A stretch of 64,000 nucleotides of DNA from Epinephelus fuscoguttatus. Its lineage: Eukaryota; Chordata; Actinopteri; Perciformes; Serranidae. Positions 19,410-40,400 of the stretch are shown here, in pieces. The stretch is from contig NC_064756.1 in assembly GCF_011397635.1 (NCBI RefSeq), positions 19,577,907 through 19,641,906 on the forward strand, written 5' to 3'. The notes beneath the pieces are model-generated. The model worked only from the letters and a program-made list of their open reading frames with translations, searched no databases and was not told the DNA's origin. Position 1 is the first letter of the stretch, and each line of letters begins with the position of its first letter. The position numbers and the translations under genes were made by a program.

Positions 19410-22400
19410 TCACAGCCGTGTCTCCCTGTCTGTGCTGTTGTCTTGCGTTTGTTGTGATTGGTCAGAATTAGAAATCACAAACTCTTCCTTCCTGAGTGCC
19501 TCCAGCTCTGTGCCGCCGTTGGCCAGAGCTCCGTGGATGGCATTTCTTTCCTCCTTCCTCAGCTGTCGACCAAGCAGGATGAAGCCCGGGATGCAAATGA
19601 TAAACGAGATGGTCCGTAGGCTCAGTGTCAGACCCAGGTATGCTATCCTGAGACGTTAAGGTGTAAAACACAGCAAGTCAACAACTTTGATTTCAGTGAC
19701 ATAGCACACTATATTATAGCTTTTTAAAAACTTTTTTTATGACATACTGCACTATGACTTTTTGGACACACTATGCTATATCTTTTTTGTTAGGCTTTTC
19801 TACAGTATACTACGCTATACTATGACTTTTGTAGAACATTTTTGTATGACTTACGATTGTAAGTCTATGACTTTTTATAACTTTTTGGACATACTACACT
19901 ATGGCATTTATTTATTTTTGTTTGTACCATACAAAACTATGACTTTTTTTATGAAATTCCATACTATGACTTTTTTTAACATACTCTACTATGACTTTTA
20001 TGACACACTATATTATGACTTTTTTATGACATACTATACTATGACTTTATTTAGTAAAACATTTCGACATAGTATACTATATGGAAAATTGTTTTTGATG
20101 AAAAATTGATGACTTACTGTACTATGACGTGTTTGATTAAAAATTGAAGACATACAAAACTATGACATTTTTGATAAAAAATGTTTACATATTATACTAT
20201 GACTTTTTTATGACAAAAATCACGACAAACTATACTATGATGTTTTGATGAAAAATTGATGACTTCCTATACTATTACTTTTTTGATGAAAAAATCACGA
20301 CATACTATACTATGACTTTTTGGATCAAAAATTGACGACATACTATACTATGACGTTTTTGATGAAAAAGTGACGACATACTATACTATGACGTTTTTGA
20401 TGAAAAAGTGACAACATACTATACTATGACGTTTTTGATGAAAAAATGATGACATACTATACTATGACATTTTGGATCAAAAATTGACGACATACTATAC
20501 TATGACGTTTTTGATGAAAAAGTGACAACATACTACACTATGACGTTTTTGATGAAAAATTAACAACATACTATACTATGACGTTTTTGATGAAAACGTG
20601 ACAACATACTATAGTATGACTTTTTTATGAAAAAATCACAACATACTATACTATGACATTTTTGATGAAAAACTGACATACTATGACGTTTTTGATGAAA
20701 ACGTGACAACATACTATGACGTTTTTGATGAAAAAGTGTCAACATACTATAGTATGACTTTTTTATGAAAAAATCACAACATACTATACTATGACATTTT
20801 TTATGAAAAACTGACATACTATGACGTTTTTTATGAAAAAAAATCATGACATAATATACTATGACGTTTTTTATGAAAAAAAAATCACGGCATACTATAC
20901 TATGACATTTTTGACGAAAAACTGACGACATGCTATACTATGACGTTTTTAATGGAAAATTGACGATACACTATACTATGACGTTTTTGATGAAAAATTG
21001 ATGACATACTATGACGGTTCTAATGAAAAATGTATGACATACTATACTATGATGTTTTGATGAAAAAATGTTGACATACTATACTATGACGTTTTGATGA
21101 AAAAATCACGACATAATATACTATGACGTTTTTTATGGAAAATTGACAATACACTATACTATGACGTTTTTGATGAAAAATTGATGACATACTATGACGG
21201 TTCTAATGAAAAATGTATGACATACTATACTATGACGTTTTGATGAAAAAATCACGACATAATATACTATGACGTTTTTTATGGAAAATTGACGATACAC
21301 TATACTATGACGTTTTTGATGAAAAATTGATGACATACTATGACGGTTCTAATGAAAAATGTATGACATAAAAGTGAATTAATGCCAATACATCTAAATC
21401 ATAACAGTACCACGCTGAACTCTGTTCCCTTTAAAATCGCCACGGACAGGTTCACGTACCTAGGGGTGTCTGTCACCAGGAAACCTGGCCTGCTACTCGA
21501 GGAAAATTGGAATTTAAAGATGAAACAACTGAAGCAGAATATTGAATTCTGGAAGACCCTCCCACTATCACTGGTAGGGAGAATAAACGCCATTAAAATG
21601 GTAGTTCTCCCACGTTTCTTATATGTTTTTCAATCAATTCCATCCTTTATTCCACAAGCATACTTCAGGAGGCTGGACTCTATAGTGACTCCTTTTCTTT
21701 GGCAAAACAAAGTAGCACGTATAAACAAAAAACACCTCTGTAAATTAAAACAGGAGGGAGGCTTCGGCCTACCAAACTTCAAATGTTTCTATTGGGCAGC
21801 ACATCTGAATATTTTGGCTTTCTGGAGGAACTCGAACCTCACTGAGGATACAACCAGTCCACCCCCTGCCTGGCTTTCTTTAGAGAAAGCAGCATGTGAA
21901 GGGACTTCTCTCCTAGCCCTATTGAACAGCCCCATCAAAATTAACAAATCATTGTACAAAGGTAACTTTATAATACACAACTCGGTAAGAATTTGGAACC
22001 AGATTAAATCACATTTAAAGGCCCCAGACATGTACAGAGATACACCGATTTGTAACAACCACGCTTTCAAGCCCTCTGCTGGAGACCCAGTGTTTGCTCG
22101 ATGGAGGGAGAAGGGAGTGGGGTCCCTGAGCGATTTATATCAGAGGGGGCACCTGATGTCTTTTGAGCAACTGAAAGCTAAGTATAACCTGCCAGCCTCG
22201 CATTTCTTCCGCTATCTGCAGATCAGAAATTTTATAAAGGCCCATGTATCAACATTATCAGACATCCCACGACACCATGCACTTGAAAGAATAATTAAAA
22301 TCACGCCAGGTAAAAAAGGAGCAGTATCAGGTTTTTACCAGATACTCTTCAACCAGATTGAAACTAGCACAGAAAAGCAAAGGTCTGAGTGGGAATCGGA

Positions 22401-25400
22401 ACTGGGAATGCCTCTTTCCATAGAATACTGGGATACATGTCTTTCAAATATTCATCGATGCTCAATTAATGTTAGGCATAAACTAATTCAGTTTAAAATA
22501 ATACACAGATTACACTATTTAAAGATAAAAGTTAACAAGATGTATCCTAATGTATCAACCTTGTGTGACAAGTGCAAGAATCAGGTTGGAACACTCACTC
22601 ATCAGCTCTGGACGTGTCCCAGTCTCCACTCATTCTGGTCTTCAATATTTGATTTTTGCTCAAAGGCATTTAAAAGGCTGTGTGAACCCTGCCCCTTAGT
22701 GGCCATTCTGGGATCAGCGGGTGATTCAACTCATTATTTTAACAGTACAAAGTCTTTACAACAGTCTGTATGTTTTGGTGCCATTTTGGCTAAAAGACTT
22801 ATCTTAACCCATAAGAACCCAGACCAATTTCTCCTTAAAGGAAAATTATGGGGGACATAAAACAGACTAAATAGACCACATAGAACATATTTCTGACATT
22901 TTTTTCAAAATACCACCCCTCACTGTCAGAGATCTGTAATGTTACATATATGTCACATTGGGCGTTAAGAACCTGGATAATTTATCCATCAAGGGTAATT
23001 ATGGGGGATATAAAATAGACTAAATAGACCATATAGAACACATTTCTGACATTTTTCTCAAAATAACACTCATTAGTGTCAAAGATCTGTCAATGGGTGT
23101 TAATGGTAAATTCATTCCTCTTTTGAAAATTAATCAGCCTTAGTCTTTTTTGGTTTGATAACAAAGCTTTGTCTTTTTATTTGCGTTTCCACAATATCAT
23201 AACTTTACCTCTTGGGTTTAATAACAAAATCTTTAACAACAAAATTTTGATTTATTTCACAATACAAAACTTTGCAAATTGAATTCAAAAAAGACTGCCT
23301 CATCATATTGGAGGTCTTCTCAACAAGCCATTGTAGCTGTAAAAACTGAGCTACAGTCTTTTTCTGGTCATGTTTTTCTGTTTGGTAACAACGATTCTAA
23401 CTTTACCTCTTAGGTTTAACAACAACATTTTCTTTTCATATTTGTTTTACAACACACAAATGAATACATTTGCAAAAATTTGCAAATTGAATAAAAATAA
23501 AAACTACTACTGGGTAGTTGTATTTTGCTGTCCAGGGTTCATCTTTGGTTGAGGTACTTCATCTAAATCACCTGATTGACTGCAGTCTGAATCACTAGAC
23601 TCACTTGACTTGTCATTCTCCATGTCTTTGTTGCTGGGAGTGTAATCAGGGTCTTCAAGGTCGTCATCTGAGCTACTTTCACATCCCTCAAAGTCACTGT
23701 CGTCTCCCTGGATGAATGTCAGTGCATCCTGAACACTGTATCGCTTCTTATCCATAATGCAGATAAAATTAAATTACAATTTTCAATTATTCTTTTCAAT
23801 TTTTATTATTTATTTATTTTCATTACATTTTCAAATGATATAGGGTAGAACAAAGTGATATAGGGTCTGTTTTTTTATTCACTGATGGGTAAAAATGGTT
23901 TCCTTATATATTTTGTTAATAACTGGATTCATATGATGTGATTTTTTGTTTACATTTGTTTTAATATGCTTTGAATTGAACAATATAAAATGTATTAACT
24001 AAATATCATTGAAAAAGTTAAGTTAACTGAGCAGATCATAAAAAAATTTCTTATTGTGACATATATGTCACAATAGGTTTTCCATGACAATTTTAAGGTT
24101 AAAGGTCCGATGTGACATATATGTCACAACGATATTTACCTGACTTGTTTTATATCAATTTGTTCATGAAATGTGTTCATAACAGGTTAAATGTAATAAA
24201 GGACTTGTTATGTAAGCATTACAATTCTTAAATGGTTTGAATCTTACCTTTGGCAACCAAAAACAAGCTTTTTAAATTTAGCTAGCTCTGCCCCTAGTGG
24301 TAACCTGGCACACAGACATCTTGGAAATGTTGTTGTGGGAAGACCAAATCACATGACCTGTCACATGATCCACCAGGATGTTAAGTATGTGTCACTCTGG
24401 GACTTCATGAGTTAAAGTCAAGGAGAAAGCTGTTCATGGAATTTTCCAGAACATTTAAAGGATGTGTGGCACCTGTGTCACAGTGGGTTCTTATGGGTTA
24501 AGACACTGGAAATCAGATAATGTACCTTCAATTGAAATGTGGCTGAGGGAGCTCAGCGAGACCCTGTGCATGGAGAAACTTAGATTTAAAAATGCAGGCA
24601 GACGAGCAATTTTTGATAAAGTATGGGAACCTGTATTAAAGTACCTGAAGGACTCGAGTGTGGTCAATATTACACTATGAACGTCTTCTCAAGATAACTC
24701 TGTGATAACGCTGACTGTAAAAAGGTCCTTTTCCCTGTCAAATAGTATTGATCTCATTTGTTGTCAGACGCATAGTTTCTGCTTAGTTTCTGCTGCCATC
24801 GTTGTTTTATAAACTTCCAGCTCAGGCTTACACTTTTTTCTTGTTGTTTTGCCACAGAACCCAAGCTGTGTAGAAATCCGCCATATTGTCATATCCAATC
24901 TATGTATGTTTGATGTTGCTGCTGTGTTTTTTCTTTTTGCGTTTTTTTTTTTTTGTTTTTTTGTTTTTTTTTTGTATATTACAAAACATATAAAACTATG
25001 ATTGCTTTGTAAGAGACATGTATTCTATCCAATGTGCACTTGGCAATAAAAAGAATATTAAAAAAAAAAGAAAAATGTATGACATACTATACTATGATGT
25101 TTTGATGAAAAAATGTTGACATACTATACTATGACGTTTTGATGAAAAAATCACGACATAATATACTATGACGTTTTTAATGGAAAATTGACGATACACT
25201 ATACTATGACATTTTTGATGAAAAATTGATGACATACTATGACGGTTCTAATGAAAAATGTATGACATACTATACTATGACGTTTTGATGAAAAAATCAC
25301 GACATAATATACTATGACGTTTTTTATGAAAAAAAAAATCACGGCATACTATACTATGACATTTTTGACGAAAAACTGACGACATGCTATACTATGACGT

Positions 25401-28400
25401 TTTTAATGGAAAATTGACAATACACTATACTATGACGTTTTTGATGAAAAATTGATGACATACTATGACGGTTCTAATGAAAAATGTACGACATACTATA
25501 CTATGACGTTTTGATGAAAAAATGTCGACATACTATACTATGACGTTTTTGATGGAAAATTGACGACATACTATACTATGACATTTTGGATGAAAAATTG
25601 ACATACTATACTATGATGTTTTTTATGAATAAAATCACGACATAATATACTATGACGTTTTTGATGAAAAAAAAATCACAACATACTATACTATGACCTT
25701 TTTTGATGAAAAACTGACGACATACTATACTATGACGTTTTGGACGAAAAATTGACGACTTACTCTTCTATGACATTTTTGACGAAAAACTGACGAGATA
25801 CTATGACGGTTCTAATGAAAAATGTACGACATACTATACTATGACGTTTTTGATGAAAAAATGTCGACATACTATACTATGACGTTTTTGATGGAAAATT
25901 GACGACATACTGTACAATGACAGTTTTGGCGAAAATTTGATGACATACTATACTATGACGATTTGATGGAAAATGGACGACATGCTATACTATGATGTTT
26001 TTGATGAAAAAATTATGACATACTATACTATGACGTTTTTGATGAAAAAATTGATGACATACTATACTATGACTTTTTTGATGAAACAAATTACGACATA
26101 CTATACTATGACTTCTTTATGACATACTATACTACGACTTTTCTGGCATGCTATTCTATGACTTTTTCATTACTTTTGTTAAATGACATATTATACTATG
26201 ATTTTTTTTAGCACACTTTGTTATGAGTATTTCATTATATTTCTATAACATTCTATACTATGACTTTTTATAGCATATTCTAAATGACATGTTAAACTAA
26301 GACTTTTTTTTGACATACTATATTATGATATTTATAGCATACTACACTATAACTATTTATGGCATACTATATTATGACTTTTTAAATTGACATACTATAG
26401 TATGACTTTTTTATGACATACTACATTATGACTTTTTATGGCACACAATACTATGGCTTTTTAATGTAATAAAATAATAATACTGTGACTTTTTCTTTAC
26501 TAATTTTACTATGTAATGACTTTTTAATGACATTTTTGACATAGTATTGAGTTGACACTTTCTTTGAATGTTTTACTATATAATGATACTTTTAAATTAT
26601 GATTATGATTTTTCTATCATATAGTATACTAAGACTTGTTTATGAATTTTACAACATAGTATACTTTGACTTTTTTGGGACATAGTATATTTTAACTTTT
26701 TTATTACTGTTTCTTACTCACATACTATACTTTGATGTTTTTTCTAGACATACTATACTATGCTTTTTTTATTACTTTTTTGAATGACACACTATGCTAT
26801 GACTTTTTTGGATATAATATTCTAGATTTCTTTTATTGATTCTTTTAAGGCATACCATACAATGACTTTTGAATGACATTTTTCTGAAATACTATAGAAT
26901 TTCTTTTGATGATTTTTTTTGACATAGTGTACTATGACTTTTGTAATGGATTTTTATGGTATACTATTGCTGTTTTATGGCATACTGTACACATCAAGGG
27001 CAGCATGTAAACAGCATGACAATACAATATTACAGGAGTTTTTGAGGACTGACACTGGGCGCCCCCACTCAGACAAAATTGAGACACCTAAGTTCTACAG
27101 ATCCTACAATTTTGGGACAGTCTGAGACTGAGTCCATCGTGATGTTAATTGAATGTTACAGATACAAAAAATGAAAAAAATGTGAGTGCTACCTGTATGC
27201 AGTCGTGTTGTAGATTCTACAGGCTCCTATGCCTCCACACCTCTTCTGGCCCCATTTTAGACATGTGGTGTCAATGATTGCTCCAAAGTAGATGGGTGCT
27301 GGGATCCCGGCTGTAAGACCAAGGACATATTTTCACAACAACATCCCAAAGAACTGAAACATAACAGATTACACTGTTCAGAGCAGTCTGGATAAACATT
27401 AAAATTAGGCTGAAACACTAAAGTTTCGGCAAGTACTTCTACTACAAGAACATTTTGGAGTATATCTGGTAGGTCAGGTGACAGGTATGTTTGAAAGAAA
27501 GATGGCAAAAAGATATAAAACAAGGTTAATAAAATGACATCTTAACCCTGAGCCACCTGAAGATGTGCGATAGAGGATGTTTTGAAGGAAACTTACCAAG
27601 GGTACGTGTTGCTAGAGCATGGAAACCCAACGCCAGAGATTTCAGTTGTGGTTTGATGCACCTTCATGAAAAGAAATTGCAGACATTTTTCAAGCAATAT
27701 TATCAGAAACTGATTCACTCAAACCATTGTACACCAAGAATGTAAACAATGCACATTCCATAACATAAAAATAACTTTTTACTGAGGAAAGAATGTATTG
27801 ATTGTATTGTACTGAAAGTACAATAAGCTACAGAAACACAGCAAGCAACCTAATTTAATTCCAGCAAGAGACAGTGCATCTGCTGATATGGCAAGTGCAA
27901 GTGTGTTTGCATGTCATGTAGGTGGGAATTCTTCAATATCTGCTTAATGACGGTGGGGTTGTTGGTTGCTGTCCTGCTGTGGATCACTGCTGATGTTCAA
28001 AAGCGTCTGCAGAGCAGAGTCACTGCCCGTGTAAGGAGCAACCATGTGGTCATCTTGTTGAGTTCAGGATGTGTGGACAGTTGAATCACTCCACAACCAG
28101 AAACCATGGATCACCAGAGCCATCTGGCATCATGGACAATAATAAAGCGGCAGCCAACAATGTGAGAAGACGTAACATGGAACTAAATTACAGTGCACAA
28201 GTTGAAGGAGCTGATGGGATCACATTTCCCTCCAGTTGTACTTTGTCAAATTCCATGTGACAAATAAATGGCTGATTTATTGATTCATTGATTTGACTTA
28301 TTCTTTGTATAAAGATGTAGGAAGAATAAAGCTGAGGATACAAAAAAGTAGGATGTTCTATATTGTATTATAGAATGTCTCATTAGAAAGGGTGATCTAT

Positions 28401-31400
28401 GTTAGGTGGAGTACTGGCCAGCAGAGGTCGCTGTGGTGCTGAAAAATCGATCCTCTTGTCCAGGGGTTCTCAAAGTTTAGATAACTGAGTGGAAATTTAG
28501 GGAGCAAGCATATGATTAAAGCTCACAAAGCAGAAGTGCACACACAAAACAGAATAGCATATTTTTCTTTGTGATGGAATGATATTTTGTTTTGTTATCA
28601 TATATATTAAATTATATGACTATATTTTACAACACTTTTGATGACATACTGTACTATGACTTTTTAAATGGCCTTTTTGGTATGATATTTTTTATTGCAT
28701 TCTATACTATGACTTTTTATGGCGTACTATACTATATTTTTTTTTAAATTGCATACTTTACTATACTGGCATATTTAACGCATACTTTAATATGACTTTA
28801 ATGACTTGTATGACATACTCTTTTTTCTGACATTCTATATTATGACTTTTTAGCTATACCTTTTTTTAAATTATTTTTCATAGTATACTATAATTTGACA
28901 TTTCTATAACACTTTTTATGACATTCTATTCTATGATTTTTTCCAGTTTTCTTCTGGCATACTTTTTTAAAAATCATTTTTAATGGCATACTGTACTTTG
29001 ACTTTTCATGACTCACAATGACTGTTTTTTACCTATTTCTGACATACTATACAATGAATTTTTTGATGCTATTTTAATGGCATCCTATACAATAACTTCT
29101 TTCATGACATACTATGCATGACATTTTATAACATTTTTTAAATGATGTACTGCGCCTTTCTTATGGCATACTACATTATGACTTTTTTAAAGCAAGCCAT
29201 ATACTACACCAGTTTTTAATGATTTATTCATTCATTCATTCATCTTCTAACCGCTTCATCCTTTTGAGGGTCGCGGGGGGGCTGGAGCCTATCCCAGCTA
29301 CATCGGGCGAGAGGCAGGGTACACCCTGGACAGGTCGCCAGACTATCGCAGGGCTGACACATAGAGACAAACAACCATTCACACTCACATTCACACCTAC
29401 GGACAATTTAGAGTTATCAATTAACCTAGTCCCCAATCTGCATGTCTTTGGACTGTGGGAGGAAGCCGGAGTGCCCGGAGAGAACCCACGCTGACACGGG
29501 GAGAACATGCAAACTCCGCACAGAAGGGCTCCCAAGCCTGGGATTGAACCGGCAACCCTCTTGCTGTGAGGCGAGAGTGCTAACCACCACACCACCGTGC
29601 CGCCCCCTTTAATGATTTATTTTTGATTTTATTAATGATTTTATTTTTATATAACAGTTTTTATGAAACATTATACTAGGGGTCCTCAAAGTTATGATGA
29701 CTAAGAGTTCATTTTGGGAACCAGCATATATTGAGGGATGCACACAAAAAGTGCACACATAAAACAAAAAAACTCTCAATTCTTTTCCATCTCTCTCCCA
29801 CATTAAACTGCCGTGTTGTCCACCAAAATCTCAAATTTTATCTGAAAGCACTGATGACAGAACATAATGCCTGCAACACAAGTAGTGTATTATATGTGCG
29901 CTATTGAAAGTGGAAGTATTGAAATGGAATGCGGATGATTAAAATATGCTTGCATTTAATGTCACATTCAGGGCCCGCACACAATGTTTCTGGGGTCTTT
30001 TGATCATTTGGAACTTCATCCCATTATGTTAGCCTTGAGCTAATTGAGCTAATATGCCAAGAAGAATTGCTCCAAAGTATTAGTAACAGATTATTAAACT
30101 TGTATTTACTAATATTGAAGAAATTAATGTAATTTATTTACTTAGAATCACAGCAACACAGAACAGCCAGTCTCCTGTTCCTCCATATCACACATGCTGT
30201 CCACATAAAAGCCACATCACTGTCACACTAAAGTGGCAGTGTCTTTCACTTGATCCTTCACCTGTGCAATTGCAGGAGATCAACCAACTGATTCACAATC
30301 CCCTTGAGTAAACTTAATGGGAGAGTTACAGCACTGGTTGTAACGACTCATTTCTTCTGGGCCACTCAACATATTAAATTAATGAAGAGTGGTTTCATCG
30401 TTTTAATTCTGAGCATAATTTAGTCCCATTCATAACGAGATTCAAAACTCAGGAAATCACATGATTTGAATCGGACTATTTTTAAACAGTTTTGACAAAG
30501 CCACTGTTTATATGTGTGACACACTGATACAAAGACACACACAAACATGTAGCCATTGCCAATAACAACAAGTCAGCTATAAATGGCTCATATCATTGTC
30601 TGTGGAGGACTTGATCCCATGATTCCTGGTAATAAACAGATGTAAGGTCTGGAAAAACTGAGTAAATAAATGTAAGATTTTTTTTTTCCTTTCAAAGCAA
30701 CTGAATCAAAGCTGCAAATTAAAAATGTTATTGATTTTGCACAGGTCACTGAAGGACACTAATTCAATAACCAGCTACAAATGTGGGTCCGATGAAGTTG
30801 AATGCCAGTTAGCAACATTTGTTCGCTATAGATCAGCACTGAGTAACACAGATCCAAACTCGGGTTTAAAGGGGTTTAAATCATCTACACCCATATTGAC
30901 AATGCATCAGTATATAAGAAAGTCAAAAAGTGAAATAATATGACCCCTTGTAGTGGTTTGAATAAAGGCTATTTGGTTACTTCACAGTCATTTTCATTAC
31001 ATTTTTTTAAATTAAATCTAACCTGATTAGAAACATGTAGCCCGGTGTGCCCCCAAGGGAGATGATGAAGGAAGTGATGACCGAGAGAGCCAGGAAGTAC
31101 GGGAACATCCTGTCACAGTCGTCCTTGTGAGGGCACTGACCTGTACTGGCCGTAAAGTTACCAGCCACACCGACACAGCTACAATTAGAGAAGACCTGGA
31201 GAGACATTCATAGTCACACACATATTGACCATGTATAGCGGGACATAGATACATGTATTAACACAACACTCACATATGTGGCTGAAGATCTCTGAAATCA
31301 CTGCTATTACAGTAATCAAGTTAATCAATAAAAAGAGGCCAACCAGGCACAGTAGACAGCGTGGCTCCCTGCAATTACATAATCTATACTGATAAATTAT

Positions 31401-34400: not shown

Positions 34401-37400
34401 AATAATGCCATCACACTAAGAGAGATCCGTAATACCATAACACAGGACAATCTAATATTCCAGAACATCAACACTATCAGCATATCAACAATAGACAGGG
34501 TATTGAAGAAGCATGAGATGAGCATGAAACAGTTCTACAGGGTACCATTTGAGAGAAACTCTGATAGAGTGAAAGAGCTGCGGTTCCAGTATGTAAGTGT
34601 AAGTCAGTGGTGTGTTACTGGTTATCTATCATTATAACCTGTTTACAGTAAAGCACAGAGGCCACTATATTGAACTTTTGGTGGAGAGCACAAAACATTC
34701 CTATGTAATTTGCTGTTATGGTATGATTCTACCGTATAACTGATTTGATATTTTGTTGTACTGTATTGTAGAGAATAATGGCATCGGAGGGGAATGAGAC
34801 TCCTCACACCCTTGTTTTCGTGGATGAAGCCCGTTTCAACCTGGCCAAAGGAAGAAGACGTGGCCAGAATATTATTGGCCACCGGGCCACGGTGGATGTC
34901 CCAGGCCAGTGTGGAGGCAATATAACAATGTGTGCTGCCACTTCTGAAAATGGTGTGGCCACCCACATTCCCACACTTGGCCCATACAATACCCAAAAGC
35001 TCCTGTTCTTTTTGGATCACCTTTATTCAGATCTCATCCCAGAAAATGAGAGAGGTTTGGTAGGGCCTCACTTGTCAAAGTTTGTAGTTGTGTGGGACAA
35101 TGTCAGCTTCCACCGCAGCCCGCTCATCAGGGCCTGGTTCACTGCCCACCCAAGACTGCTAATGGTGCTCCTACCACCTTACTCCCCATTTCTCAATCAG
35201 TTGAGGAATTTTTCTCTGCTTGGAGGTGGGGGGTGTATGAGCATCGGGCTCAGAACCAGAGGTCCCTGCTTGAAGCAATGGATGCTTGCTGTGACAGTGT
35301 CACAGCAGATCAGTGCAGGGGATGGTTGCGGCATGCACGTAGATTCTTCCCCCGTTGCATCGCAAGGGAGAATATCAGGTGTGATGTGGATGAAAATCTG
35401 TGGCCAGACAGACAGCAGAGAGAGGACGACCATGAGAGTGAGGATGAGGAGGACGACCATTGATGTGGAGTTACTTGTGTGAACGATATTGCATAATTTT
35501 CTTTTTTATTGTGTTGATGTGTTAACAGTATATTTTGCTGTATACATTTTCTTTTTACTGTGATGTTTGGCAGTTACTTTATGTTTGTGCATAAAAATAC
35601 AGTAACAATTTCCATGACAGTGTAGGTCCATCATCTTTTTCAGTTTGATAGTTTGATTTCTGGTAGCTAGACAAAAGGCATCAATTACAGTAACCACTCA
35701 CTGTCAGTGAATGGTCTGGACCAAGATTGAAATGTGACATAAGTGATATTTCCATGGTCCACTGCCATAGTGACAAAACATCTAAACATTTTGACCAACA
35801 GTGCTTACACAATGCCAAAGAGACTTTGCATTTTGGGGCCATTGACTATTTATATGAGAAAATGGCTTAGTTTTGACACATGAATTAACTGTTTTGGGAG
35901 AGATATGACCTTTTGGAGGTGAGCCATGGTGTTGTGCTGAACCATCCAGGCTATTTTGGCAAATGCATGTAGAGCTTGGAGAAAGTCATTTCTGTTTCAA
36001 GAAATGAGCCAAAGCAATTGAGCAGGAAACTTGTGTTTGGGGGCCTTGGCTATTTATATGAGAAAGGGACTTAGTTTGAAGCATGAGTTAACTGTTTTGG
36101 GAGAGATATGACCTTTTGCAGGTGAGCCATAGTGTTGTGCTGAACCATTGGACTATTTTGCCAAATGCACTTAAAGCTTTGAGAATGTAATTTCTGTTTC
36201 AAGAAATGAGCCAAACCAATCGAGAAAAACTGTAACTCATCTTACATTGACCTCATTTATCTCTAGAGGCTATGATTCGTGATATTGGACATTAATGATT
36301 AAAACGTTGCCTTTTTTTTTTACACAGGCTCTGCCCTCTAATCAATTCTATTAGTACTCTCCTCTAATCACAAGCATGCATTCACCCACTGATATTTGTA
36401 TAAAAGTAACCAGCCAATCAGGACATGCCTACACAAATATCTGCCTACAGTATATAAGGTGGCGTAACACTGTCATTCATTCATTCATTCATTCATACAT
36501 TTTCCATAAATGCTTCTCCTATTAGGGGTTGCAGGGGGGCTGGAGCCTATCCCAACTGACACTGGGCGAGAGGCAGGAAACGCCCTGGACAGGTCACCAG
36601 GGCTGACACATAGAGACAGACAACCATTCACACTCACATTCACACCTATGGACAAATTAGAGTCACCAATTAACCTGCACGTCTTTGGACTGTTGGAGGA
36701 AGCCGGAGTACCGAAAGAAAACACACACTGACACAGGGAGAACATGCAAACTCTGCACAGAAGGGCTCCCCCACCCCAGGGTCCAAACCAGGAACCCTCT
36801 TTCTGTGAGGTAACAATGATAACCACTGTCAGCTATCCTTTTTTTTAATCCTTCTTCAGTGTGGGCAATTGAATTTGCTCTGCCCAGCTGGTGCATTGGC
36901 ATGTCATGTTGAATGCGCGGCCCCAATCAGATGCACTGAACTCCTGTTTGTGTGCTTTGGTCATGGTGTAAGGTCCTATCCAAGAAACCCCTTGTGAGAT
37001 GGCTTTGTGAGTACTTCTTTCAAGCCAACAGTGTCAGTGTCCATTAATACGATTCTTTCTCTTGGACATGTCGGGCTCCTTTTCAGGGTCTGTGCTCTCT
37101 GGAATGACACAGGACTGGTGAAAAGGGTTGGGTGTGTGTCAGATGTATTACACCTGACTCCACTCTGGGCATGATACACCTACATGTTTCCATGCCCCTT
37201 GATGACCCTGAAAATTTGGCACGCAGGGTATATATTGCCCATCTTTTGACCCCTGCAAGTTTGACCACGACTCTACCCAGTTCGGTTACATCACACCTGA
37301 GTTGGCTGGGGCCCCCTGATCCTCTGCTGCGGTGTGTGTGAGGTTATGAAGAAGTAGGTGGGCCATGGCAACTAAGCTTTAGCCGGTCAGGATCAGTGTG

Positions 37401-40400
37401 GCTGGGTTTATGTCGCACAAGGGCGTTCATTCATTGGGCTCCACCCACTGTACCCAAAGAGTCCAGTAGAGGGCGGAGCCTGTATGAGACAGAGCAAAGG
37501 TTACAATACTGTAACCCTAGCTCTATCAGTACAGGCAGAGCCCTCCACCTAGGGACCCTGTCGCTCCTAGGCCACTTGCTAAAGAGCGTACCATATGCCT
37601 GCTTTAAACTGTGGGCTCCACACTTGTTCAGTTAGGCATGTCCTGACTGGCCAGCTACATTTATACAAATTTCAGTGGGCAAATATGTGGTCGTGTTTGG
37701 AGGAGAGTAATATTCATAGAGTCTAGCTGAGGGCTATGGCTATGCTTATAGAACTAGGGTTATAATATCGTAAGCATCGTAACTTCCAACCAGATGTACT
37801 TGAATGTACCACTCCAGACAACAGAAAGATATGAGGTGCATTTAAGGTAAGGTTAGATAACTGTACTGTGGGGTACTGAGTTTGAAATAATAATATAATT
37901 TGATGACAGTATCCTGGACACACCATGTTCTTTTCTATGACTCACCTGTTGTATGACAGTGTCACACCAGCTACCCTGGCATTCTCACAGCTCATTGCAA
38001 AGAAGAACAGTGACAGGATGTAACCGATCAAAGATGTGCCGAAGGCAAACCGAGCTGCTCCCATGATGTTCAGCTTTAGCCTCTTCATCAGCAGACCTCC
38101 AGAAAACATCCCCAGCGCCACAGCTGGGATATTGATCACACCTAAGATTCAGAGAACGCAAGATCAATATTAAGTGAAATGAAATGTTGACTCAAGAGTT
38201 TAATCTGGATTTAAACAAAGACGGACAATATGATTTAATACGGTATCTATGCTTGCCCAACATCTCTCACACTTGTTCATACCCAGAAGGAGGAAATAAA
38301 AAAAAATCCAAGTTGCCTTGATCAAAAAAGATCCCTGCTTTTTTTTATGTTTTCAGTCTCTTCTCTTACACCTTCATTTAACATCAATGTGAAGACATGG
38401 TCTTTTATCTACACCCATGTCATTTGCTCTGGTCACTAATATTGCATTCTCTTTCATATGCAGCCAGTCTAGTCAGTGCAGGCATCTCCTTTGATGAGAC
38501 CACATGTACGTAGGGACTTTCATCTTATGTTATCAACTTCATTCGAAATTTCATTTCATATGCAAAGCACTTTTCATATCCACAAAGTCTCTGCAGCTGT
38601 GGCGGTTAGTAGGCTCTGCTGAATTAGAACCCCGACCCAGTTCTCCTTCCTTTAACAAAGATCTTTTTCTGCTTCATTCAGCAAATGCAAAGTACATCAA
38701 AGTAACTAGGAAAACAATGCTGACCTGTGGATACACTGAGATTAGTTATGGAATTATAAACAGGTTAAATGTGTAAACTTTAAAGTCTATGGTGACACTA
38801 GAATTAATTTCAGCTAACTAGGCACTTCAGAGAACTCTTTCTTTCATCTAGTGTGAACCGAGCTGAAAAGCCTTCACTAGGTCTGTATGTTTTCCCAGTT
38901 GAAATATACACTTTTTTTAAATTAAAGGTCTACTGTGTAGGATTTAGGGTCATGTATTGGCAAAAATGGTATATAATGTTCATAACTTTGTTTTTATTAG
39001 TGTATAATCACCTCAAACTAAGAATCGTTTTTCATTACCTTGGAAATGAGACATTTATATCTACATATGGAGCAGGTCCTCTCCCAAAGAATCCACCATT
39101 TTGTTTCTACAGTGGCCCAAAACGGACATATCAAACACTGTCTCTAGATTTGGCCATTCATGTTTTCTCATCGGCCACCGTAGTTCTCTTACATGCCTGG
39201 CACAAGGGAGAAGTTTCAGTTCTGCAACAGCACCACTAGATGCCACTAAGTTCTACACGCTGGACCTTTTAATTATGACTTTATTTGCCAGTGCAAGTGC
39301 CGTACCCATGAGAAAATTGGCCTTTGAGGCAGACTGTCTGAAGTGCTGCTCAATGTACTTGGGCTTGTAGGTGACCATGCCGATAAGAGAGTTCAGCTGG
39401 ATGATTGTCACACAGAGATAGATCAGATACACAGGGTGTCCCAGCAGAGTCCGCAGGGTTGGAATAAAGTCTGAAGAGAAGAAAAAAAAAATCTGAGTTG
39501 AAACACACCTGTCTGAAGATGTTGGGAAGTTTCTCTTTATGGTAATGGTACGTGAAAGAGTATTGCCTTGTGACAGAAGGATGTCATTTATAGACTTATA
39601 AAATATGCATTACATTAATATTTATGAACACAGAGACCATTGATGGAATCTAAATCTCCTCTATGATTCAAATGTTTTCTTCCAGATAGCCCTCCAGATA
39701 ACATCGTTTTCCAGCTCTGACAAGTGCAAACATTTAATCATTTTCTTAAATGACTACCTCTAAATTCATCCTTACCTTTGGCCATCTCTATGAAAGTCGT
39801 GTTTTCGTCTGCAGGATACTTGTGCTTCAGATGAGGAGGGTCTTTAATGAAACTTGTCTGCTCTGGTGTGCACTTTTCTGGGCCCTGGGGCCCGGATAAG
39901 GGCAGGGAGCGGGGCAGAAACCAGAAAGGGATGGCAGAGAGCAGGGTGATGACCCCAGCAATGAGGTAGCCAAGCCACCAAGCCCCCACCCAACGCGCAT
40001 CTGCTGGGGTGATGGTGATGGTCTCTGTGTTGGGGTTACAGATGATGAGATGTAGTAAATGCTCAGTGATATGGTTGAACACAGATCTTCTATGGTTTGG
40101 AGGTACATTTTCTTTAATGTGATATGCAGTTTTTAATACTTGGCTTTCGGAAGCCTCCCGAACTCCCTCTACTTGACTGGATGACCAAATACCTTACCTT
40201 TACCTTTTCATTGCTACAGTTTCTGAAATTAAAAATGTGACAAGGTGGTTTTTAACTGGTGCTCATCTGTTTCATTTGAATGTAGTGGCTTGGGTCTTGA
40301 TTTTTAATACAACTCTTACAGCAATCAGGAAACAGCTTTTGATTGGTTTATTGAGAGGTCGTCTAACCTCATGTTTTGTCCCCTGATGCTCTTTTCATTG

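Follow-up and report, generated by a model that had tools for sequence, protein, structure and literature searches.

Order and relative age of three nested repeat layers, a tandem array, an L1 remnant and a non-autonomous piggyBac element, in an slco1 intron of Epinephelus fuscoguttatus

The last intron of an slco1 gene of Epinephelus fuscoguttatus carries three repeats nested within one another: a non-autonomous piggyBac element lies within the ORF2 remnant of a 5'-truncated L1 retrotransposon, and the L1 lies within an array of 38-bp units. We analysed this nest in a window of 64,000 bases (contig NC_064756.1, G000:C5:19577907-19641906), and relatives of each layer were sought in the assembly of the same genome (1,046,998,120 bases in 26 contigs). 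We put the probability at about 95% that the nest was built by three successive ordinary events, in the order array, L1, piggyBac, and that both insertions are recent. The three layers of the original prediction were all recovered, by the TTAA and inverted ends of the innermost element, the open frame of the rejoined L1 and the array units on either side of it.

The host gene lies on the minus strand, with its last coding exon at 19468-19650 and its penultimate one at 27189-27299 (ends approximate). A further exon on the same strand, at 39738-40193, matches the OATP family (PF03137, 2.8e-16). When the two exons flanking the nest were compared with solved structures, as a query of 92 residues, OATP1C1 was the best match (1.9e-18) and OATP1B1 was close (2.3e-17). 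On these matches, assignment to the slco1 family is secure, while the narrower name slco1c1, under which the intron had been described, is likely. The array, with the elements inserted in it, almost fills the intron, which was placed by eye at about 19650-27193. Relative to slco1, the L1 runs antisense and the transposase remnant of the piggyBac element runs in the sense direction. Elsewhere in the window, another DNA transposon has left a DDE_3 remnant of its transposase at 34772-35224 (PF13358, 1.5e-16).

The outermost layer, the tandem array, extends over 19690-27000 (plus strand), as delimited by Tandem Repeats Finder and by unit spacing. Its core consists of 38-bp units, mostly 37-39 bp long, and was found on both sides of the L1 (about 20024-21341 and 25071-26112), as had been claimed; the edges outside the core are made of degenerate units, mostly of 24-26 bp. 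The array belongs to a dispersed family: with 40 of 825 candidates scored, the genome yielded at least 286 matches, and those listed come from at least 32 different places, the window among them, spread over 15 contigs. In its homogeneous core, degenerate edges, higher-order blocks and many sites it resembles known dispersed minisatellite and satellite arrays, from which it differs in its unit, CATACTATACTATGAC, which was not found in the literature searched. Degenerate units of the family also occur at about 28645-29200 of the window, in the next slco1 intron, which a coding exon separates from the nest. The idea that the arrays travelled in a common mobile container was considered and rejected: comparison of five of the 32 listed places (the window and L065-L068, one region being partly masked) revealed no common unique flank, except for a single 301-base match at 85% between L066 and the window and for array-like edge sequence. 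At L067, 26-bp units apparently flank the core in the opposite orientation.

The middle layer, the L1, occupies 21371-25069 (plus strand) and is 5'-truncated and interrupted by the piggyBac element. Its first part (21371-22803) corresponds to the C-terminal region of ORF2 and matches human L1 ORF2p at 1.3e-34; its last part (24502-25069) holds the end of ORF2, the 3' UTR, an AATAAA signal and a short A tail, the latter two identified by eye. The original prediction held that removal of the inner element leaves the LINE frame continuous. This was confirmed: without the insert and one TTAA, 537 codons can be read before the frame reaches its own stop (about 24678-24680), and the result is the same for either TTAA copy. 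In Pfam the longer L1 fragment gave no match and the short one gave two matches below the cut-off, and the 82-codon transposase remnant of the piggyBac element had no match either; these sequences could be named only through their relatives. No relative of the L1 fragment was found in viral_contigs, and 21371-25069 had no match in phages.

This L1 lineage is of very low copy number, and in this it differs from other L1-clade retrotransposons: at least five close copies are present in the 1.05-Gb genome, namely the window copy and four further ones at 99% to it, L045 (C19), L046 (C21), L047 (C11) and L048 (C12). The A tail, target duplication and 5' truncation of the window copy are, in contrast, features shared with the clade. 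The sister L046 retains what the truncated window copy lacks, the endonuclease and reverse transcriptase domains (PF03372, 6.4e-13, and PF00078, RVT_1, 8e-35), and its N-terminal ORF2 region matches human L1 ORF2p at 1.6e-49, so that the human protein is matched by L046 in the endonuclease part and by the window copy in the C-terminal part. As a possible ORF1 with the L1 RNA-binding domain, a frame of L047 matched PF02994 at 0.02, below the cut-off of that family, among several coiled-coil matches. All four sisters end in an A tail with a repeat of 14-18 bases (tail bases included) that recurs just before the 5' end. A preference of this L1 for arrays was unsupported, as the array motif, searched with up to two substitutions, was present at none of the four sister loci.

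At the borders of the L1 the same 17 bases are found at 21354-21370 and 25070-25086 (both plus strand), an exact match. Together with the A tail, this duplication had been read as the integration scar of the LINE. The exact repeat is indeed there, but it is no independent proof, since the 17-mer belongs natively to the array, where it has five exact copies (starting at 21025, 21208, 21354, 25070 and 25253). Pairs of breakpoints drawn at random in the array gave a perfect end duplication of at least 17 bp in 509 of 20,000 trials, and nearby pairs in 1,230 of 20,000. As the motif is native to the array, the 17-base repeat taken alone is weaker evidence here than a repeat of this kind between unique flanks, and for the same reason its perfection, which had been offered as a sign of recency, carries little weight.

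The order of array and L1 rests rather on the array blocks. Self-comparison revealed two array blocks with a shift of 329 over 20934-25328 (plus strand), the LINE lying in the second. With the LINE and one 17-base copy removed, direct comparison of the L1-bearing block with its neighbour gave 346 matching bases out of 350, with 4 mismatches, through the junction, and a stretch of 145 bases over the reconstructed empty L1 site is identical to 20971-21115. Because the array block runs on across the L1, we place the L1 insertion after the duplication of the 329-bp block. Among the other explanations, the one that survives best is that the array expanded around an L1 already present, which would leave the order of these two layers unfixed. 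The array family is dynamic, its blocks being 98-99% identical and many arrays existing elsewhere, which speaks for such an expansion; however, the blocks match in register across the L1 junction and the 64-kb window holds no other piece of this L1. We thus consider later expansion around the L1 very improbable, though some later exchange inside either flank may have taken place.

The innermost layer, the piggyBac element, occupies 22808-24497 (1,690 bases, transposase sense on the minus strand) and is flanked by TTAA at 22804-22807 and 24498-24501. Its 14-bp inverted ends, CCCATAAGAACCCA and TGGGTTCTTATGGG, are perfect, so that both parts of the scar described in the original prediction are present. 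The 18-base pattern of TTAA plus end occurs twice, both times exactly, while 0.06 occurrences with up to three mismatches were expected by chance and two were reached in one of 100 shuffles. A subterminal palindrome, TGTGACATATATGTCACA, lies at 22940 (with one mismatch), 24055 and 24111 (span 22940-24128), three matches against 0.05 expected by chance. The left subterminal region is duplicated (22826-22937 and 22979-23090, about 84-86% identity). Elements of the piggyBac superfamily characteristically excise without a footprint, and their inverted ends usually begin with CCC; the ends of the window copy are likewise short, inverted and start with CCC. The element contains an N-terminal transposase remnant of 82 codons (23510-23755, minus strand), which stops at an internal deletion junction; its start is shared with the two longer copies L020 and L021, whose frame continues into DDE_Tnp_1_7. 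Judged by its sequence, then, the window element is an internal-deletion derivative and a non-autonomous member of the piggyBac superfamily. With insect piggyBac (6x67), piggyBat (9c0f) and the fish element PiggyBac-1 of cichlids (PMC11753138) it shares the TTAA target and the CCC ends, together with DDE_Tnp_1_7 in the longer copies found here; it differs from the superfamily in retaining just the first 82 transposase codons. Neither a relative of the transposase remnant nor the exact 18-mer of the piggyBac end was found in viral_contigs, and the end sequence CCCATAAGAACCC was not found in the literature searched. The end for which the cichlid study searched, TTAACCCTT, is different from the window end, CCCATAAG.

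That the piggyBac element came after the L1 follows from empty sites. The TTAA target is uninterrupted, as CTTATCTTAAG, in all four close L1 sisters (L045-L048) and in both older L1 relatives fetched (L049 and L050); because the site is intact in all of them, we date the piggyBac insertion later than the L1. These empty sites and the continuity of the array block across the L1 bear out the predicted order of array, then LINE, then piggyBac. It might be argued that the nest was copied as a unit, with the L1 and the piggyBac element brought into the array together by segmental duplication, and the divergences of the two elements are indeed of like order. Against this, none of the six L1 relatives just named contains the piggyBac element, the window L1 ends in an A tail of its own and is accompanied by an in-phase array repeat, the flanks of the window piggyBac and of seven other copies have nothing in common, and no second L1-piggyBac junction is present among the matches listed. 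Copying as a unit is in our estimate more improbable still than later array expansion. Least probable is an error of assembly, with junctions created artificially at a repeat: nested repeats are hard to assemble and the nest is judged from the assembly alone, yet each junction bears an exact scar, with TTAA, perfect ends and a frame continuous to the base at the piggyBac element, and an A tail with an in-phase 17-base copy at the L1.

For the piggyBac element, the own-genome search gave at least 28 matches, of which 17 stretches were fetched and 12 aligned with the window, and a subfamily majority was derived from seven copies (the window and L009-L014). The window copy differs from this majority by 1 substitution in 1,690 positions and shares with L009 a gap of two bases in a run of A; the remaining copies differ by 2 (L009), 5 (L010), 1 (L011), 11 (L012), 14 (L013) and 15 (L014). 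Over 1,479-1,687 positions, the differences were 29 for L015, 73 for L017, 144 for L018, 6 for L019, 43 for L020 and 56 for L021. The last two have about 1.67 kb extra in the middle in comparison to the window copy, and here PF13843 was matched by L020 at 5.9e-63 and by L021 in two pieces (2.9e-27 and 7.8e-29); a longer copy also matched the solved piggyBac 6x67 at 1.1e-17. The frames of both transposase-bearing copies are broken, and each has one recognisable end, with ATAG (L020) or ATAT (L021) there instead of TTAA. Twelve other copies were examined for the deletion junction, CCCAG joined to TAGTAG; the search string was found in nine of them, and all nine have the junction. As L017 and L018, at 5-9% divergence, span the deletion region and L017 has the junction, the internal deletion looks older than the recent burst of the subfamily.

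Both ends were recognisable in 8 of the 17 fetched stretches, with TTAA on both sides in six, TTAG on both sides in L011 and TTAA with ATAA in L019. One end was recognisable in another 8, flanked by TTAA in five and by other bases in three (ATAT in L015 and the sites of L020 and L021 given above), and one stretch had no recognisable end. The young copy L011 (G000:C16:4233832-4235519) is the one with TTAG on both sides, a sequence which a figure legend of PMC3983033 lists among non-canonical piggyBac sites. Another young copy (L007 / L014, G000:C3:47038062-47039730) has one end without the terminal CCC and, rather than by a simple TTAA, is flanked by a perfect direct target duplication of about 150 bp (151 aligned bases). 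Its damaged end shows microhomology of about 3 bp, as judged by eye, and the copy looks like an aberrant, end-joined integration. L022 (G000:C2:4701345-4706471) is another copy of this piggyBac derivative and is itself split by a different LINE, which carries RVT_1. L019 (G000:C11:39389903-39391385) has undergone a further internal deletion of some 100 bp, which seems to have occurred between copies of TTTGCAAATT.

Comparison of each element with its own-genome copies, which had been proposed as a check, was also used to assess age. In an alignment of five L1 copies over 1,780 columns, the window L1 has 2 private substitutions and no private gap, and its sisters have 2 (L045), 7 (L046), 6 (L047) and 2 (L048) private substitutions; in two further columns the window and L047 are alike against the other copies. 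These values and the single piggyBac substitution sustain the claim that both insertions are recent. The perfect 14-bp ends, which had been cited for it, are no sign of recency, for L017 (73/1530) and L018 (144/1610) have them too; perfect inverted ends were rejected as a clock, being found in copies 5-9% diverged. With zero differences over 28 or 34 sites, the divergence is limited only to at most about 0.11 or 0.09 substitutions per site, and the open L1 frame is a loose clock, with 95% of copies broken at 0.010-0.023 substitutions per site under an assumed indel rate. For neutral change in fish, the yearly rate is about 3e-9 to 1e-8 per site. If this rate holds, 2/1,780 and 1/1,690 imply ages of no more than a few hundred thousand years, with an uncertainty of several-fold owing to the small counts, bearing in mind that the majorities are built on few copies, the window among them, and that gene conversion could lower divergence.

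The three events can be pictured as follows. A 38-bp array of the genome-dispersed family would have expanded in the last slco1 intron, and a 329-bp block of it would have been duplicated fairly recently. An L1 copy may then have entered the second block through target-primed reverse transcription: a T-rich site would have been nicked, and reverse transcription halting early would account for the 5' truncation, with the 17-base duplication and the A tail left at the borders. Finally, a piggyBac element already without most of its transposase would have been pasted into a TTAA of the L1 ORF2 remnant, its transposase presumably provided in trans. The enzymes and chemical steps assigned to these particular insertions are what we infer from such marks. 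Each event is of an ordinary, well-known kind; nothing here is novel in kind, and what is known of the three kinds of repeat is unchanged by this nest.

PMC11753138 discusses piggyBac elements that have been active recently in fish. Insertion polymorphism between individuals, raised in the original prediction, is plausible for the nest. A more specific reading, which we hold only tentatively, is that members of the piggyBac subfamily still transpose in the living species with the help of a transposase copy other than those found, so that the slco1 intron exists in alleles with and without the piggyBac element, perhaps also the L1; its odds are slightly reduced by the state of the two transposase-bearing copies, each of which also has just one recognisable end. 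The nest is a worked example of how three repeat layers can be put in order, and given relative ages, from sister copies in a single genome; it also draws attention to a young piggyBac subfamily, possibly still mobile in a fish.
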